NCBI RefSeq assembly: GCF_014274465.1
Contig: NZ_CP060394.1
Coordinates: 3,658,001 to 3,722,000 of the forward strand
Reading direction: 5' to 3'
DNA: 64,000 nt
DNA from: Alloacidobacterium dinghuense
Lineage (GTDB): Bacteria > Acidobacteriota > Terriglobia > Terriglobales > Acidobacteriaceae
Part shown: positions 52,189 to 61,955 of the stretch, one piece after another
Layout of the letters: the number at the start of each line of letters is the position of its first letter
How positions within the stretch are numbered: position 1 is the stretch's first letter
Notes under the pieces: generated by a model
The model's input: the letters and a program-made list of their open reading frames with translations, nothing else
The model's database searches: none
What the model was told of the DNA's origin: nothing
Made by a program: the position numbers and the translations under genes

Positions 52189-53946
52189 ATGCCCCGATTG
52201 CTCTCTGTAAATGTCGGTCTTCCGCGCGACGTGACATGGAACGGCAAAACTGTCCGAACCGCAGTTTGGAAATTTCCTGTTGCGGAGCGGCACATGGTGC
52301 GCAAGCTCAATATCGATGGCGACGGGCAAGGTGATCTTGCCGGTCATGGAGGCGAGCATCGCGCCGTCTTTGTCTACCAGATGGGCTCGTATCATTACTG
52401 GGAGCGCTTTCTGGGCCGCAATGATTTTACTTTTGGGCAGTTCGGTGAAAATTTTACGGTCGACGGGCTTGCGGATGACGAAGTTTGCATTGGTGATCGA
52501 TACCGCATCGGCGACGCGCTATTTGAAGTGACGCAGCCACGCGTGACGTGCTATCGCGTCGGCATCCGCATGAACGAACCTCGGATGGCAGCCCTACTCG
52601 TAGCACATCACAGACCAGGATTTTACTTTCGCGTGTTGCAAGAGGGAGAAGTTGGCGCGGCCGATGACATTGTAAAAGTTGCTGACGGTCCAGAGCGGAT
52701 CACCGTGGCGGAGACTGACGCCCTCCTATATTTGCCGGGGCATTCCCATGATCGACTGCAACGCGCGCTGCGGATTCCTGCGCTTAGCAAGGGTTGGCAG
52801 AGTTCGTTCCAGGCAATGCTCGGGCGAGAATCGAGTTCCGAAACTGCGGCAGGGAATCCGGGGCTCGCACATGAGGAGCAAGCTCCGGCATGGCCCGGAT
52901 TTAAGCAAATGCGAGTCACGCAGATGAGTAAGGAGAGTGACAGCGTGACTTCCTTTGTTCTCGCGCCGATCGATGGTCAGCCTCTTCCCGCCTTCCACGC
53001 AGGTCAATTCGTTGTCTTGCGGTTGCAGGTCGATCCGGGGAAGCCTCCGATTCTTCGCAGCTATTCCTTGTCCGATCTGCCAGTAGCCGATCATTTCCGC
53101 ATCACCGTCAAGAACGAATCAAATGGAGTTGGAAGTTCGTTTCTGTGCAACCACGTGCGAGAAGGCGATGCATTGGATGTGAGCGCACCCAGGGGAAGTT
53201 TTACCCTGCATTCCGGCGCGGACCCCGTGGTTTTGCTGAGCGCCGGAGTTGGCGCGACGCCGGTGATGTCGATGCTGCACGCACTCGCCGCAGAAAAATC
53301 TGAACGAGAGATCTGGTGGATCTATGGAGCGCGCAATAGTCTCGACCATCCATTCGCGCGAGAGTCACGTTCTCTACTGCGACAGCTTTCTCGCGGGCGA
53401 AGCTACATCGTGTACAGCAGACCCGCAGCAACCGATCAACCCGGGTTGGACTTTGATGCGTCAGGTCATATCGACGCAGCGTTGGTGGAGAAGATTGGCG
53501 TGTCGCGGGATAGCGAATTCTATGTGTGTGGCCCATCTTCGTTTTTAGAGAATATGCGGGGTGGGCTGCGAAACTGGGGTGCGCGCGCAGAGAATGTGCA
53601 TACGGAAATTTTCGGTGCCCTTGAGGGCATGACACCCGGTATGGCGAGTGTTGGTCATACACCGCACCTGCCCCACGGCCCCCAGGGATCCGGCCCGTCA
53701 GTCTCATTTGCGCGCAGCGGGATCACGGCTGCGTGGGATCCCAAAGATCAGAGTTTGTTGGAACTGGCGGAAGCGTGCGACATTCCGGTCAGATGGTCCT
53801 GCCGGACGGGAGTGTGCCATACCTGCATGACGGGTCTGATTGGCGGATCGATTCGTTACAAGCCGGAACCGCTGGAAAGGCCGGCGACTGGAAATGTGCT
53901 GGTGTGCTGCTCACAGCCGGAAGCAAATGTAATTCTTGATCTTTGA
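52189..53946 (+). CDS. MOSC domain fused to ferredoxin-reductase and 2Fe-2S domains
   Basis: 585 aa. MOSC domain (about 1-215; DLAGHGGEHRAVFVYQ, GQFGENFTVDGL, TQPRVTCYRVGIRM with the conserved Cys), FAD domain (LRSYSLSDLP near 285), NAD domain (VVLLSAGVGATPVMSML) and C-terminal plant-type [2Fe-2S] (CDIPVRWSCRTGVCHTCMTG, then CC near the end). MOSC proteins handle sulfur carried to molybdenum cofactor or reduce N-hydroxy compounds (YiiM type); the fused reductase could supply electrons. Strong AAGGAGGT before the ATG. It lies 30 bp after the SnoaL gene on the same strand, likely one unit with it. Confidence 0.92.
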   Translation: MPRLLSVNVGLPRDVTWNGKTVRTAVWKFPVAERHMVRKLNIDGDGQGDLAGHGGEHRAVFVYQMGSYHYWERFLGRNDFTFGQFGENFTVDGLADDEVCIGDRYRIGDALFEVTQPRVTCYRVGIRMNEPRMAALLVAHHRPGFYFRVLQEGEVGAADDIVKVADGPERITVAETDALLYLPGHSHDRLQRALRIPALSKGWQSSFQAMLGRESSSETAAGNPGLAHEEQAPAWPGFKQMRVTQMSKESDSVTSFVLAPIDGQPLPAFHAGQFVVLRLQVDPGKPPILRSYSLSDLPVADHFRITVKNESNGVGSSFLCNHVREGDALDVSAPRGSFTLHSGADPVVLLSAGVGATPVMSMLHALAAEKSEREIWWIYGARNSLDHPFARESRSLLRQLSRGRSYIVYSRPAATDQPGLDFDASGHIDAALVEKIGVSRDSEFYVCGPSSFLENMRGGLRNWGARAENVHTEIFGALEGMTPGMASVGHTPHLPHGPQGSGPSVSFARSGITAAWDPKDQSLLELAEACDIPVRWSCRTGVCHTCMTGLIGGSIRYKPEPLERPATGNVLVCCSQPEANVILDL

Positions 53947-54696: not shown

Positions 54697-54786
54697 TTGG
54701 ATTCTCCTAAATCGCGTTGCGCGTCCCACATTTGGTTTGCGACAACGCGTGGTTTGGCGTTGTTTTTATACGGATTCAACCCTCTC

Positions 54787-54855
54787 GGATCGGCTCCGCA
54801 GTCCGTTGTCAAAGGTCGGCGCCAGGTCCGCCGTGCGGCCAGCGCTGTGTTATCG
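54787..54855. pseudogene. Short remnant of the mmsA 3' end
   Basis: About 65 bp resemble the 3' end and trailer of mmsA in the orientation of copy 2 (CTCCGCAGTCCGTTGTCAAA, then GGTCCGCCGTGCGGCCAGCG), with several mismatches. So a third, older mmsA tail lies 3 kb from copy 2. The rest of the stretch 54697-54965 shows no gene. Confidence 0.7.
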
Positions 54856-54965: not shown

Positions 54966-55520
54966 TCACCTCTTGCAGCTCATCGCGGCGGGGCTGTCTG
55001 ACTCCGATTTGGAGATGCCATGAGAAAGATTTACAGCGAGGCGTTCAAGTATCAGGCACAGCAGCGCTAAGACCGATGTAAGCATCAACCGCTGATAAAG
55101 GCCGCTCACACGAAAGAGCTCTACAAGGAGGATCAGACTGGCCAGCACCAGCAGCGTCAGGGACATGGCACGATGGAATCGTTGCATCCCGTATTCCAGC
55201 CCGTTCAGGTCCCTTCGCTCAATCTCGCGGCCTTTGTCGGAATCGGTGCAAGCCACTTTGCTCTTGCAGGAATTGCAGGCAGCAGCAGGCGCACGGTAGA
55301 CGACAACCCCCTTTGCTGAGTCCGAGAAAATCGGGAACAGGTGTTGGTCCTGCGGGCACCTCCAGACGTCCCGGTCCGGATGATAAGTGAAGCCGGCGGT
55401 ACTGGCGCCCAGAGATCGCCGGTGGGCATGACGCGCGGCGCATTCCAATAGAAAGGCGATGAACGCAAGGGAAACAGCGTATGCCAAAATCAATGTGAAT
55501 TCGAGAGATGCGTGAACCAT
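54966..55520 (-). CDS. Membrane protein with Cys-rich insert, next to NO reductase
   Basis: 184 aa. One N-terminal helix (LEFTLILAYAVSLAFIAFLL), a soluble insert (about 40-100) with FTYHPDRDVWRCPQDQHLFP, then VYRAPAAACNSCKSKVACT, and two more helices. The insert looks like the metal-binding motif known from IS1182-type transposases (Y-x-C-P-x-G ... A-x-C-x2-C-x4-C-T), but no transposase core is present; helices flank it, so it is not an IS. It follows norB by 23 bp on the same strand and is probably co-transcribed. Role unknown; a metal or redox accessory to NO reductase is a guess. Confidence 0.7.
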   Translation of the reverse strand: MVHASLEFTLILAYAVSLAFIAFLLECAARHAHRRSLGASTAGFTYHPDRDVWRCPQDQHLFPIFSDSAKGVVVYRAPAAACNSCKSKVACTDSDKGREIERRDLNGLEYGMQRFHRAMSLTLLVLASLILLVELFRVSGLYQRLMLTSVLALLCLILERLAVNLSHGISKSESDSPAAMSCKR

Positions 55521-55543
55521 GGTTCATCGCTCCTAAATCTAAG

Positions 55544-57829
55544 CTACCGTTCCTCGACCTGAGCCACGACGTCGGTGAAGAGGATGTCTTTTGGCTCCTC
55601 CATGGTCGAACTCTTCCCCATATGACGAATGCCGAGGAAAGACAGGTAGAGCATCGGAAGCGTTCCACCCAGGATGAAAACAATGTCGCCCGGCATGCGT
55701 AGCCACTCCAGCACGGAGTTGGCACGACTGCCGATGTAGTTCAGCGTGCGGGCATCATAGTAGCTCACGCTGATCGAGTGATAGAGCTGCAGTATACCCA
55801 GAGGGAAAAGGGTTGCGAAAACCATCCACGCCAGCCCGAGATTGAGCGACCAAAAACTGATCCTGGCCGCCCTATCCGACCAGTATTTTTGCGGGATGAC
55901 ATAGCGTAGGCAGAAGAGAGCGAGACCTATCGACAGCATTCCGTATACGCCCATCATCGACGCATGTGCATGATTCGCAGTCAGGGCGGTGCCGATCTCG
56001 TAGTAAGAAACGATAGGCAGGTTGATGAGAAAGCCGAAGACCCCGGCTCCAAGAAAGTTCCAGAAACCGACTGCAGCGAGGAACATCACGGCCCAGTAAT
56101 GCGGAAATGGCGTTCTCGATCCCGCGCTCTGCACTGTTCCCAACTGCAGGAAGCTCCACGCCTCAAGCGTAAGGATCGTCAGCGGTATAACCTCGCCCGC
56201 GGAGAAAAACGCGCCAAGCGCCATGTGCATAGCGGGCTCGCCCGAGAAGTACACGTGATGCATAGTGCCGACGATTCCACCTGCAGAATACAAAACAACG
56301 TCGAGGTAGATCATGCGCAATCCAATGCGCTCGTCAACCACGCCTAAGAGAACAAAGATGTATGCGACCAGGACAGTGGTGAACAGCTCCAGAAAGTCTT
56401 CAACCCAGAGATGCACGACCCAGAAGCGCCAGAAATCCGTGGTTGTAAAATGCTCTCCAGGATTCGCCAGCAGGCCAATGCCATAGAAGGCGGGGATGGA
56501 AAGCGCAGAAAAGAAAAAGAGCCAGGGCATGTTTCCTGCATGCTCAGCAGAGAGCCTGCCGCGAAGCCCTCGATAGAGAATCACGACCCAGAAAGACAAG
56601 CCGACGGTCAACAAAATTTGCCAGATGCGACCAAGATCGAGATATTCAAATCCCTGATTGCCGAACCATGCGTTACGAACCAGGCCCTGGATACCAGCAA
56701 ATTCGCCGAGCAGACTTCCCACCACGACAACGACGAGTGCACCCAATAAACCATATGCAAGGAGCTTTTGTCCTTGCGGCTCTCGCCCTGCAATCATGGG
56801 TGCCAGGAAGATGCCCGAAGCAAGATACGAAGTGGAGACCCAGAAGATGGATAGCTGTAGGTGCCATGTGCGGACCACATTGAAGGGAAGAACCCGTCCA
56901 AGATCGATGCCGAAGAAGGTCTGCAGGTCCGCGCGATAGTGCTCGGTAGCGGCGCCCAACAGAGTTTGAATGACGAAAAGCGCTGCCATGACGAAGAAAA
57001 ACCATGCGCACGCCCTTTGAGCCGGCGTGAGCTGAACTTCATCCGGAGCGCGGAAAGACATAGTCTGTTGTTCGCGGCCATGCCATCCCATCAGATTCCA
57101 GCGGCCAAAGGCTGCTAGTAGCAATCCCGTTCCCCCCAATAACACAACGAAGGAAAGCACACTCCACACGATTGAGTCGGCGGTTGCATGATTGTCGACA
57201 AGTGGTTCGGGCGGCCAGTTGTTGGTGTAGGAGTAGGGATGGCGGGGCCGGGCGGTAGAGGCTGCCCAGGCAGTCCAGCTGAAGAATGCTGTCAGCTTGC
57301 GAATCTCTTCCGGGTCGCGAATGGCGGATGGTCTCAGGCCGAACTTGGTTGTCGGCTCTCCAAAGAACGTCGCGTAGTAGGACCGGCAGTCTTTGAGGGC
57401 CTGTACCTGAGCATCTGTATATACGAGCGTGCCCGTACTTTCGTCATATTGGTTGGACTTGAAGTCTTTTATGGTGTGGCTGCGCGCGGTGTCGGAGTTT
57501 TGGCCACCATAAAAATCGATACTGGAGAGCGCTGCGCGATGCAGATACTCGGTTGTGAAGTCCGGTCCAAGATACGCACCATGGCCGAAGATCGATCCGT
57601 ATTCCATCAGGCCGTTGCCGAGAAAAATCTGTTGGCCCGTCATGATGTCGCCGCGAGTGAACAGGACTGCGCCGTGTGTGTTTTTAACGTTCTGGGGAAT
57701 GGGAGGTTCATCATTGTAGGTGTAGTAGGTGAGCACACCCATGATCAAGAATCCAATCATCAGGACGATGCCTGCTGCCTGGATCCAACCACGAGAGATC
57801 ATCAGCGGACGCTTTTCAAGCGCGGACAT
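55544..57829 (-). CDS. norB: Quinol-dependent nitric oxide reductase (qNOR)
   Basis: 761 aa, membrane enzyme reducing 2 NO to N2O with quinol electrons. The N-terminal cytochrome-c-like extension of qNOR is present (about 40-220; GDIMTGQQIFLGNG, MEYGSIFGHGAYLGPDF, no CxxCH), then 12 or so helices. Heme and FeB ligands: RTWHLQLSIFW, WVVHLWVEDFLELF (His and the functional Glu), GTMHHVYFSG, NHAHASMMGVYG. ATG 57829 has AAGGAGTGA. There are no denitrification genes nearby, so NO detoxification is the likely role. The upstream gap holds no NsrR/NorR-like site that I could recognise. Confidence 0.95.
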   Translation of the reverse strand: MSALEKRPLMISRGWIQAAGIVLMIGFLIMGVLTYYTYNDEPPIPQNVKNTHGAVLFTRGDIMTGQQIFLGNGLMEYGSIFGHGAYLGPDFTTEYLHRAALSSIDFYGGQNSDTARSHTIKDFKSNQYDESTGTLVYTDAQVQALKDCRSYYATFFGEPTTKFGLRPSAIRDPEEIRKLTAFFSWTAWAASTARPRHPYSYTNNWPPEPLVDNHATADSIVWSVLSFVVLLGGTGLLLAAFGRWNLMGWHGREQQTMSFRAPDEVQLTPAQRACAWFFFVMAALFVIQTLLGAATEHYRADLQTFFGIDLGRVLPFNVVRTWHLQLSIFWVSTSYLASGIFLAPMIAGREPQGQKLLAYGLLGALVVVVVGSLLGEFAGIQGLVRNAWFGNQGFEYLDLGRIWQILLTVGLSFWVVILYRGLRGRLSAEHAGNMPWLFFFSALSIPAFYGIGLLANPGEHFTTTDFWRFWVVHLWVEDFLELFTTVLVAYIFVLLGVVDERIGLRMIYLDVVLYSAGGIVGTMHHVYFSGEPAMHMALGAFFSAGEVIPLTILTLEAWSFLQLGTVQSAGSRTPFPHYWAVMFLAAVGFWNFLGAGVFGFLINLPIVSYYEIGTALTANHAHASMMGVYGMLSIGLALFCLRYVIPQKYWSDRAARISFWSLNLGLAWMVFATLFPLGILQLYHSISVSYYDARTLNYIGSRANSVLEWLRMPGDIVFILGGTLPMLYLSFLGIRHMGKSSTMEEPKDILFTDVVAQVEER

Positions 57830-57961
57830 AGTTCACTCCTTACCAGCTAGAGATGGTGCCTCGAGGGGCCTGCTCGAAGAGTTCTTGACGCGGTTGTGCA
57901 GTCATAAGATCGTCTAACTCAATTACCCGTGTCGTGACAGCGTCCGATCGCATCGTTTCCT

Positions 57962-59496
57962 CTCGCACGGACTCCGCAGTCTGTTGTCAAAGTTCGGTGG
58001 CTGGTCCGCCGTGCGGCCAGCGTTGTGTCACGTTCTTGGTGCGCGTGAAGAAGCGGATGCTGTCCTCGCCATATTGGTTCAGGTCGCCGAAAGCTGAGTT
58101 CTTCCAGCCGCCATGGCTGTAGTAGCCGACAGGCGTTGGCAGGGGAAAATTAACGCCCACCATACCCACCTCGACCCCGGCAACGAAACGCTGGGCCCAG
58201 TCTCCACTGCGCGTAAAGACCGTAACTGCGTTGCCCTGGTGGTGGACGTTCGGGTAGCTTAGCGCCTCCTCGAACGTCTCCGCGCGAACAATCTGCAGCG
58301 TGGGGCCGAAGATCTCGTCCTGGTAGCTCTGCATTGACTGCGTGGCGTGATCGATCAGGGTCGGCCACAAGAAGAACCCCTCTTCGTGCCCCGGCAGGCT
58401 TCGCCCCGCCCGTCGATGACCAGCTCGGCGCCCTCGTCGACAGCCAGTTGAATATAGCTCTCGATCTTCTTCTTGTTTTCGGGGGTGACGACCGGACCCA
58501 TTTGCGCATTGGGATCAGTGGAGACGCCAATCCTCAGCTTTGGGATCTCCTCGAGCAGGCGCTCGCGAACCGCCTCGGCCGTCTCCTTGCCAACGGGCAC
58601 GATCACCGGCATGGCCATGCAGCGCTCGCCTGCAGACCCGAAGGCCCCGGCGAGGATATCCACGACAGCCGAGTCGAGATCAGCGTCGGGCAGAATGACG
58701 CCGTGGTTCTTCGCTCCGCCCAGGCATAGCACGCGCTTGCCGTTGCCCGCGCCGCGCGCGTAGACGGACTTCGCCACGGCCGTCGAGCCGATAAAGGTTA
58801 CGGCCTTGATGTCCGGATGATCCCCGATCGCTTCGCCGACCTCCTGGACACCCTGCACGACATTGACGATGCCCGGCGGCACGCCGGCTTCGTGGGCGAG
58901 CTCGACGATCCGGAGGGCCGCGGAGGGTACGCGCTCCGATGGCTTCAGGATGAAGGCGTTGCCCACGGCGATGGCCGGGGTCAGCATCCAGAGCGGGATC
59001 ATGCCGGGAAGTTGAAGGGCGGAATTCCGGCAACGACTCCCAGTGGTTCGCGGATGGAATAGACATTCACGCCAGGTCCCGCGCCCTGGGTGAACTCGCC
59101 CTTCTGCAGATGCGGGACACCGCACATAAACTCCACCACGTCGAGGCCGCGCTGCAACTCGCCATTGGAGTCGCCGAGCAATTTGCCGTGTTCGGAGGAC
59201 ATCAGGTAGATAAGCTCCTGCCTGTGCTCTTCGATCAATGCCTTGAACCTGAAAATCACACGCGCCCGGTGCAGGGGGTCAATCGCGGCCCAGGCGGGTT
59301 GCGCCGCCTTGGCGGCCGCGACAGCCTCACCAAGGATTGCGGCGTCACCGTGCTCCAGAAGGGCCTGCACCTGCCCGGTGCTGGGATCGTAGACAGGGCT
59401 GGTGAGTGCGCCAGGGCGCGTGACGCTCTGGCCGTTGATGAAATGGCTGATCGTGCGCATAGGCTTTTTCTCCTCCTCACTATCGACTTCGAAATA
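57962..59496 (-). repeat. Long inverted repeat, right arm (mmsA copy 2)
   Basis: Counterpart of 6665-8198. Apart from the two single-base deletions and a few substitutions (one is C to T in AACGGCGAG near 59165) the arms are the same. In the ribosome-binding region they differ by several bases. Confidence 0.9.
57987..59460 (-). pseudogene. mmsA: mmsA copy 2, two single-base deletions
   Basis: Length is 1474 nt against 1476 for the intact gene. One C is lost from CCCC near 59006 (after PPFNF), shifting the frame, and one G from GGGGG near 58405 (after VIDGRG). Between them the second frame reads normally, including the active-site Cys in GERCMA. As it stands three out-of-frame pieces result and no enzyme can be made. 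Since both losses are in homopolymers and everything else is nearly identical, sequencing error is possible. Read depth over both copies would tell. Confidence 0.88.
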
Positions 59497-59559
59497 AGCA
59501 ACCCCTTTACGGACTCGGCAGCCCATTGTCCAAGCTTTAGAGAGGATGAAGGGTCAAAA

Positions 59560-60341: not shown

Positions 60342-60800
60342 ATGATGGAAGTCCTGCACGTCCTAACTCATTATTGTTTAAAAAAGGTGACGATGCGCCA
60401 CGCCTGGGAGGTCAGCGATACGGATGCGCTTCGTCTTTGCCTTACGGGTCTTGAGACGGCTACGACTAGTGGCTCGCGGAATGGCACACGCGATTCATAG
60501 AACGAGCTGCGATCAGCTGAAGGCGGACGCGTGAATCCAGTGTCGATCCCTCCTCGGTCGAACGCAAGGTCCTGCCCACTAGGCACATTTCCTTCAAGAC
60601 GCAGCGTCGCCCCTCGGATGCCGGGTCTTATATTTGCGCAGCAGATCGTTTGATTGGCCCAGGCTCAGGAAGAAGATTCAGATCCTCAGGACTCTGCCGC
60701 CGCAAGGCAGTGTTCTTCGATGGTGGTCGCTTAAATGCCATCGGCGGCCAACATAAGTAATCATCTTCCCTGCACCGCTATCGCGGTCAGGAGGACGAAA
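60342..60800. other. Intergenic before integrase, no gene seen
   Basis: Short readings on both strands show no family features. It contains the strong integrase ribosome-binding site CAGGAGG at its end. Confidence 0.5.
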
Positions 60801-61955
60801 ATGCAGCGCTGCAGCTTGATTAAGAAGAACCGGAAGCGGGGTTCCGATGTATGGCTTCTCCGTTGGTCCGACAAGTCCATTTCGGGAAAGCGCATCTATC
60901 GCAAGAGAGTCATAGGGACAGTGGATGAATATTCCGACGCTCAATCAGCGCGTCAAGCAGTCTCATCACTGATCGAGCGGATCAACGCCGACAATCCTCG
61001 AATAGGCCTTCGGTCGATTACACTTTCTACGCTGTGCAATCACTTCGAACGATGCGAATTGGCGCAGAGCAACACTTGGCGCAGCTATTCCACGAAGAAG
61101 TGCTACGCAGGATACCTGAAACGGTGGGTCGTCCCCCAATGGGGAAAGTATGAACTGCGAGAAATCAAAACAATAGAAGTTGAGTCCTGGCTTCGCCGCT
61201 TACCGCTTGCAAAGAGCAGTTGCGCGAAGATCCGAGGCGTCATGTCGGTTTTGTTCAACCATGCCTGCCGATATGAGCTCTTCGATCACAATCCGATTCA
61301 TCTGGTCCGTCAGGGCGCAAAACGCAAAGGAACGCCCTGCGTTTTAGCCCCGTCCGAAATAAAGCTATTGGCAGATAGTCTCGCCGATCGAGAACGAACA
61401 TTGGTGTTGCTCGCCGCATCCACTGGCTTACGTCAGAGCGAGTTATTCGGTCTGAAATGGGGCGACATCAATTTCACGGAGGGAACGATGAACGTGACAC
61501 GCTCGATCGTTTGCGGCATTGTCGGGCCGTGCAAGACCGAATCATCGCAGAAGCCGGTCCCGATTCATCCGCTGATTATCGAGGCGCTCGTCAAATGGAA
61601 GGAGCATCAGCACTACCGCAAGCCCGACGACTGGATTTTCGCTAGTGGCCGTCGCAGCGGCCGCAAGCCGTACTGGGGTCAGGCGATCCTGCGGAAGTAC
61701 ATCCTGCCAAAGGCGCAAGCACTCGGAATCGAAAAGAGGTTTGGCTGGCACACCTTCCGACACACTTACTCGACGCTGTTGAGGAGCGTGGGCACTGAGT
61801 TCAAGGTTATGCAGGAATTGCTTCGACACTCTTCACTACGATCCACTCTTGATGTCTATACCCAGGCGATCACGCCGGCAAAGCACGCTGCCCAGGCAGC
61901 AGTTATGGCGCTTGTCTTTTCTCCGCAACCCGAGTCTGAAACGCGTGCGTTCTGA
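60801..61955 (+). CDS. Tyrosine-type site-specific integrase
   Basis: 384 aa. An N-terminal arm-binding-like part (SDVWLLRWSDKSISGKRIYRK), SAM-like core-binding domain (about 75-170) and catalytic domain with Arg in ASTGLRQSELFGLKWGDI, His-x2-Arg in WHTFRHTYS and the nucleophile Tyr in STLDVYTQA. All active residues are seen, so it may be active. ATG 60801 has GGAGG 6 nt before it; a longer reading upstream is unlikely. It points to a tRNA-Asp gene 120 bp beyond its stop, a classical integration target. Confidence 0.93.
   Translation: MQRCSLIKKNRKRGSDVWLLRWSDKSISGKRIYRKRVIGTVDEYSDAQSARQAVSSLIERINADNPRIGLRSITLSTLCNHFERCELAQSNTWRSYSTKKCYAGYLKRWVVPQWGKYELREIKTIEVESWLRRLPLAKSSCAKIRGVMSVLFNHACRYELFDHNPIHLVRQGAKRKGTPCVLAPSEIKLLADSLADRERTLVLLAASTGLRQSELFGLKWGDINFTEGTMNVTRSIVCGIVGPCKTESSQKPVPIHPLIIEALVKWKEHQHYRKPDDWIFASGRRSGRKPYWGQAILRKYILPKAQALGIEKRFGWHTFRHTYSTLLRSVGTEFKVMQELLRHSSLRSTLDVYTQAITPAKHAAQAAVMALVFSPQPESETRAF

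Follow-up and report, generated by a model that had tools for sequence, protein, structure and literature searches.

A membrane protein with a transposase-related cysteine insert encoded directly behind one lineage of quinol-dependent nitric oxide reductases

A 184-residue protein with three predicted membrane helices, for which we use our own label X, is encoded directly after the quinol-dependent nitric oxide reductase (qNOR) gene norB in the 64,000-nucleotide stretch of DNA analysed here (the window). X was found in both Acidobacteriota and Actinomycetota. Its position directly behind one NorB lineage in two phyla suggests, on sequence grounds, an undescribed dedicated partner of an enzyme supposedly made from one gene. 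The loop between the first two helices of X carries a cysteine-rich segment related to one of IS1182-type transposases, and a group of natural X variants does without it.

The norB-X pair and its membrane scaffold

The features of the pair are listed below in window positions; all are on the minus strand, where norB comes first and X follows.

55544 to 57829, minus strand: norB (norZ), quinol-dependent nitric oxide reductase, 761 aa, from Pfam profiles and alignment with a solved qNOR
55521 to 55543, minus strand: 23-bp gap from norB stop to X start, with a Shine-Dalgarno-like AGGAG, from the sequence
54966 to 55520, minus strand: gene X, ATG-started reading frame for a 184-aa three-helix membrane protein with a Cys4 insert
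55437 to 55493, minus strand: transmembrane helix 1 (TM1) of X, residues 10-28, from hydropathy and the structure model
55209 to 55391, minus strand: Cys insert of X, residues 44-104, with homology to the Cys-rich part of IS1182-type transposases; C55, C82, C85 and C91 the same in all 20 aligned rows
55113 to 55169, minus strand: transmembrane helix 2 (TM2) of X, residues 118-136, from hydropathy
55032 to 55088, minus strand: transmembrane helix 3 (TM3) of X, residues 145-163, from hydropathy and the structure model

The window's NorB matches the Pfam profiles COX1 (PF00115, E = 1.1e-51) and NorB_cytochrome_c-like (PF22085, E = 8e-51), i.e., the fused cytochrome c-like and COX1-like domains are both present, and its residues 21-739 align with a solved qNOR (best E = 6.4e-163). 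By these matches it is a full-length qNOR. Promoter and terminator scans returned nothing informative.

The preliminary description had reported a three-helix protein of 184 residues starting 23 bp after norB, and both the open reading frames and hydropathy bear this out. The three most hydrophobic 19-residue stretches of the window's X have mean hydropathies of 2.2-2.4, and the three best stretches in 20 aligned X rows (window included) score 1.38-2.81. TM1 and TM2 are separated in the window's X by a loop of 89 residues. A positively charged segment, H-x-H-R-R-S, stands directly after TM1, and a family signature, W-x-x-S-E-x-x-R-F-H-R-G, of which the window's X retains R-F-H-R, precedes TM2. 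The Cys loop, 89-93 residues long, holds 12-17 Lys/Arg, of which 2-5 lie within 15 residues after TM1; elsewhere, X has 0-1 Lys/Arg ahead of TM1 and 0-2 between TM2 and TM3. The positively charged side of membrane proteins is the cytosolic one (the positive-inside rule). Given this charge distribution, the loop is predicted to be cytosolic, with the N-terminus outside.

A structure model of X reached a pLDDT of 82.7 and a second one 82.5, the latter from a set where only one of five models reached 70. In the model, a long helix (residues 6-41) leads into a small Cys domain built of short strands and helices, after which come two more long helices. No credible relative turned up when solved structures were searched with the X profile (best E = 0.16). 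With the whole model, Foldseek gave nothing at E ≤ 0.001 and generic helical matches only, and in a second fold search the best Z of 10.0 is within the range common for helical bundles. The Cys domain alone yielded nothing convincing in fold searches (best Foldseek E = 1.1, best Z = 3.9). Two weak profile matches were set aside: HisKA_7TM, matched by one of 20 rows at E = 0.0089, and SufB, at E = 0.12.

Linkage and co-inheritance with norB

The preliminary description would have given up the pairing if the protein occurred mostly away from norB, and the searches with X queries found the opposite: once pooled and de-duplicated, 29 distinct sequences match the X profile with 70 bits or more, and 27 of them have norB in the locus. 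The two others are an X fragment starting at a contig edge (L086) and a piece of a transposase (L087). Matches below 70 bits were dropped before this count, among them a truncated X with no norB in its locus (L085); neither its genome (G793) nor that of L086 (G847) is among the 11 genomes of the same draw with a NorB match at E = 1e-50.

One hundred relatives, counting the window's genome, gave twelve matches to X, nine of which are full-length X, all beside NorB; L010 and L011 are a transposase or a piece of one, and L012, which has no X-profile match, is unclassified. A scan of a species-genome collection, which used two peptide patterns only and is not a census, gave 14 loci, all with norB directly upstream: 11 are acidobacterial and three actinobacterial (Pseudonocardia acaciae, Rothia aerolata, and a Thermoleophilaceae MAG with a frameshifted X). 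For X, this pattern scan alone covered phyla other than Acidobacteriota and Actinomycetota. Further X loci came from a 396-genome draw of the window's phylum and from a draw of Actinomycetota; the X of L006, L007 and L008, which belong to genomes of its order or class, are the same as in named acidobacterial contigs. In 23 loci with 20 distinct X, the nearest X start lies -4 to +23 bp from the norB end, and in 19 of the 23 between -4 and +2, the start being the plausible one closest to the norB end.

Matches away from norB comprise 36 rows (L085 and L086 excluded), 35 of which have no hydrophobic stretch by the threshold of the script. All 20 that were drawn from these rows and tested hit the IS1182 model at E ≤ 4e-18, nine of them above its cut-off. 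Going by these matches, the Cys segment away from norB belongs to transposases. The plasmid collection contained no X, only IS1182 transposases on three records, and the phage collection gave no match to X.

Seen from the NorB side, the class survey (299 genomes) contains 20 NorB places with 62% identity or more; 18 of them have X, and the two X-less places, L051 and L137, end at a contig edge 45 and 0 bp after norB. At places of at most 57% identity X is present in 0 of 9, among which L149 has only 51 bp downstream and L055 has an internal stop. In the Pseudonocardia order (298 genomes), X is present at all 19 NorB places, 14 times in the Cys type and five times without the insert. The Actinomycetota draw had a NorB match at E = 1e-50 in 11 of 396 genomes and X in seven of these 11; the actinobacterial NorBs without X are L112 and L113, with 63-64% identity to the window's NorB, and those of two genomes with distant matches. 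Of the NorB loci from the window's relatives, 20 of 30 are without X. Four NorB places that lacked a fetched locus (G033:C20, G022:C3, G018:C39 and a second piece in G008) were counted as X-less only since the X search gave no further match there.

In two trees, the X-bearing NorBs form one side of a branch with support of 100/99 (25 of 45 labelled rows in one and 34 of 45 in the other, which has 45 rows and not every surveyed NorB), and neither tree has a NorB without X inside this group. Its nearest X-less rows are L112 and L113, whose NorBs are useful natural controls without X. A single clade of the actinobacterial X-bearing NorBs, a group named after the tree had been seen, is not rejected (p-AU = 0.362). 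The distances among X correlate with those among NorBs, with r = 0.69 for 28 pairs, 0.90 for the 16 of Actinomycetota and 0.82 for the 12 of Acidobacteriota (L043 omitted); each time, none of 2000 permutations was as high. As sequence comparisons, these correlations show joint inheritance, not contact, and together with the clade they could reflect plain co-inheritance of adjacent genes. At 95%, the only group-specific NorB residue is W244 in window numbering (31 rows versus 11; L042, L043 and L114 omitted), hence no contact site is visible in NorB. Linkage to norB and co-inheritance with NorB, the pattern looked for in a NOR accessory subunit or assembly factor, were thus both found, with the above exceptions. 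The simplest account of these trees and loci would be that the norB-X pair arose once in the sample and has been inherited together since.

When reading frames of 100 aa or longer were compared in 20 loci, norB and X alone kept a constant position in both phyla. A few further clusters, one with an ABC-transporter ATPase member, recur at scattered distances. Of 19 actinobacterial loci with Cys-type X, 16 have a gene for an SPFH/band-7 protein (stomatin/slipin) after X (L041, L042, L043, L128, L129, L130, L153, L154 and L158-L165), with Pfam E values of 3e-37 to 1.4e-41 in the three genes tested. These 16 loci are not independent, 14 of them having been collected in a single order. The gene was not found in the loci of G690, G831 and G668, in the five loci with Cys-less X (in sequence reaching 1.3-1.4 kb past norB), beside L112 and L113, or in the acidobacterial stretches tested, including the window. 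That it accompanies the Cys form may be due to a single branch of the tree, and the association is a weak sign of contact. The SPFH gene is a separate third gene in most actinobacterial Cys-type loci, not part of X.

In the window, the norB-X pair stands between two direct copies of a 70-nt repeat, at 54781-54850 and 57959-58028, which are 86% identical. The second copy takes in the 3' end of an aldehyde-dehydrogenase-like reading frame, and the layout looks as if the pair lay between the end of this gene and a duplicated fragment of that end. A search for an empty site next to the aldehyde-dehydrogenase-like gene gave none: G003 and G029 had no match, and G001 had a 64% partial one. The aldehyde dehydrogenase, presumably of the methylmalonate-semialdehyde type, seems split at 57987-59526 over three reading frames in different frames (Pfam was run on the middle piece only), so it is probably a pseudogene. 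Also nearby are a phage-type integrase gene (60735-61955, plus strand) and, near norB, a reading frame for a 585-aa fusion of MOSC, YiiM-type helical, FAD/NAD reductase and 2Fe-2S domains (52189-53946).

The cysteine-rich insert and X forms without it

The likeness of the insert to that of IS1182 transposases, also claimed in the preliminary description, is upheld by the NCBIfam IS1182 model NF033551, which matches residues 35-114 of the window's X (E = 2.3e-9) and all 20 aligned X rows (best E = 5.4e-12). The window's X covers only positions 349-427 of the 488 in this profile, with 36.7 bits versus a cut-off of 270. DDE_Tnp_1_6 of Pfam (PF13751) likewise matches 20 of 20 rows at E ≤ 0.01 (best 3.6e-7), the window's own match being weak (E = 0.0033, 18.1 bits versus a cut-off of 25.1). 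Only this partial transposase match recurs among the 20 X rows; hence no Pfam or NCBIfam family made for X was seen.

The insert was aligned over 26 distinct X, the frameshifted L043 being left out, and 24 transposases picked by their match to the X profile. Cysteines C55, C82, C85 and C91 are present in all 50 rows. Other positions common to both sets are F44 (50 of 50), R98 (49), P56 (48) and T92 (47), as well as D51, L61, Y75 and G97 to varying degree. Every X row has W53 and N83, which vary among the transposases. Judged by this alignment, the Cys-rich segment of X is homologous to the transposase segment and not a chance motif. From the aligned sequences and the usual DDE motifs, we read the segment as lying in the DDE domain after the second Asp and before the Glu. 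The helices of X have no aligned transposase counterpart, nearly all transposase rows being gapped outside approximately residues 33-126, and no match to the rest of the IS1182 profile, such as would indicate a DDE catalytic domain, was found in the window's X. Given that the match is limited to the insert and the helices are unmatched, X as a whole is not a transposase; it looks like a membrane protein in which a transposase insertion domain has been reused as a module.

In a tree, the inserts of X group together, separate from those of the 24 transposases (100/99, from 62 columns with a bootstrap that had not settled), which agrees with a single acquisition of the insert. IS1182 transposases are far more widespread than X, which favours the direction from transposase to X; the tree itself is unrootable. 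The word "domesticated", used of the insert in the preliminary description, is therefore plausible as regards a separate X group and the existence of Cys-less X, yet the direction it implies cannot be rooted. The four cysteines invariant in X make the Cys4 insert a candidate zinc-binding unit; no close solved fold was among those listed.

Five actinobacterial X (L155, L156, L157, L166 and L167), which match the X profile at E = 5e-7 to 4e-14, are Cys-less. They retain TM1, a W-P-H-x-E motif and TM2-TM3, and the Cys insert is replaced by a linker of about 25-40 residues (length by eye); they are natural variants that either lost the insert or predate it. The NorBs beside them group together (100/99). 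Support for Cys-type X as one group is only 57/26, too low to order the gain of the insert relative to the branching of the Cys-less forms. Since the helices are kept in the Cys-less X, what stays constant beside norB is the helical scaffold, and the insert is a module that can be separated from it; and since the insert is absent in five of 19 loci of one actinobacterial order, the core role of X cannot depend on it everywhere. These variants offer a direct comparison by which the role of the module can be tested.

Proposed role of X and comparison with known systems

We favour, at slightly better than even confidence, a dedicated role for X as an accessory subunit that binds NorB or as a factor in its stability or assembly, with the transposase-related, probably zinc-binding module serving docking or regulation in the cytosol. 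Given that X has no catalytic or DNA-cutting part, is linked to one partner, and has a gene that touches or overlaps norB, a NorB-bound accessory role is the simplest. X would be made from the same transcript as NorB, directly after it and often with overlapping codons, and its three-helix scaffold would insert beside NorB, serving the membrane enzyme as a small accessory subunit or as a stability or assembly factor. The TM1-TM2 loop would lie in the cytosol and hold the Cys4 knuckle, probably with zinc and probably captured from an IS1182-type transposase, as a rigid docking or regulatory knob, for which the SPFH protein encoded next could be the natural docking candidate in most sampled actinobacterial loci. 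The shared transcript, NorB contact, zinc, cytoplasmic side, docking and capture direction are inferred. A partner that is confined to one NorB group yet conserved in two phyla would alter the assembly or control of NO reduction in that group, and X-bearing NorBs expressed heterologously without X may fail.

More speculatively, and with rather less than even confidence, one qNOR lineage in two phyla may be a membrane system of two obligate components (encoded by three genes in most of the actinobacterial loci sampled), whose small subunit would have exapted the IS1182 Cys4 insertion domain as a cytosolic metal-dependent docking module or NO-responsive switch. A fragment of a transposase would then have become part of a membrane complex for respiration or detoxification.

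It seems unlikely that X is, by analogy with NorQ and NorD, a metallochaperone-type maturation factor inserting FeB (or heme) into this NorB group. X is membrane-bound, is encoded with NorB and has a potential metal site, and cNOR does need NorQ and NorD for FeB insertion according to the available part of PMC9976466; the same text, however, states that qNOR needs no additional genes, FeB insertion included, a statement covering other qNORs, and the Cys site of X is predicted to face the cytosol, and five loci lack it.

Quite unlikely, too, is an NO- or redox-responsive regulator, in which a cytosolic Cys4-metal site would react with NO or oxidants and gate or tune NorB. The invariance of the four cysteines in 26 of 26 distinct aligned X and the strict link to an NO enzyme fit such a role, yet the same cysteines occur in the 24 aligned transposases, where structural zinc is the simpler reading; moreover, X is without an output domain, and five loci keep it without the insert.

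The spacing of the four cysteines could hold Fe as well as Zn, so that X might be an electron-transfer subunit whose rubredoxin-like iron passes electrons between the cytosol and NorB. This is very improbable: qNORs take their electrons from quinol, the insert is homologous to transposase segments and missing in five loci, and no rubredoxin-like match is among the fold-search matches listed, which leaves the idea some room. A functionless transposase remnant lying beside norB by chance, as the homology of the insert and the integrase gene nearby might suggest, is hardly credible, since the conservation of X already contradicts it, its frames staying open and residues invariant in two phyla, its NorBs being one group and 27 of 29 matches being linked to norB, and since the helical parts have no aligned transposase counterpart.

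On the accessory-subunit reading, norB-X would be a qNOR with a dedicated second component. In the literature searched, including the available parts of PMC9976466, PMC13332983 and PMC5900883, no description of X was seen, most subscription papers being outside its coverage.

In comparison with IS1182 transposases, X has the same Cys-rich segment of about 60 residues with the same four cysteines, but differs in its three transmembrane helices, its partial profile match and its being encoded with norB. In comparison with the NorQ and NorD of cNOR, the proposed role is similar in that these are also accessory genes of a NOR (PMC9976466, available part). NorQ is, however, an AAA+ ATPase and NorD a VWA protein in the part of the literature available, whereas X is a small membrane protein, and X has no match to either in Pfam or NCBIfam. 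Given that other qNORs are reported to do without extra genes and that 20 of 30 NorB loci are without X, X is not a general requirement. Finally, qNOR is described as a single-gene enzyme in the available part of PMC9976466, whereas the X-bearing NorB group has a second conserved gene.
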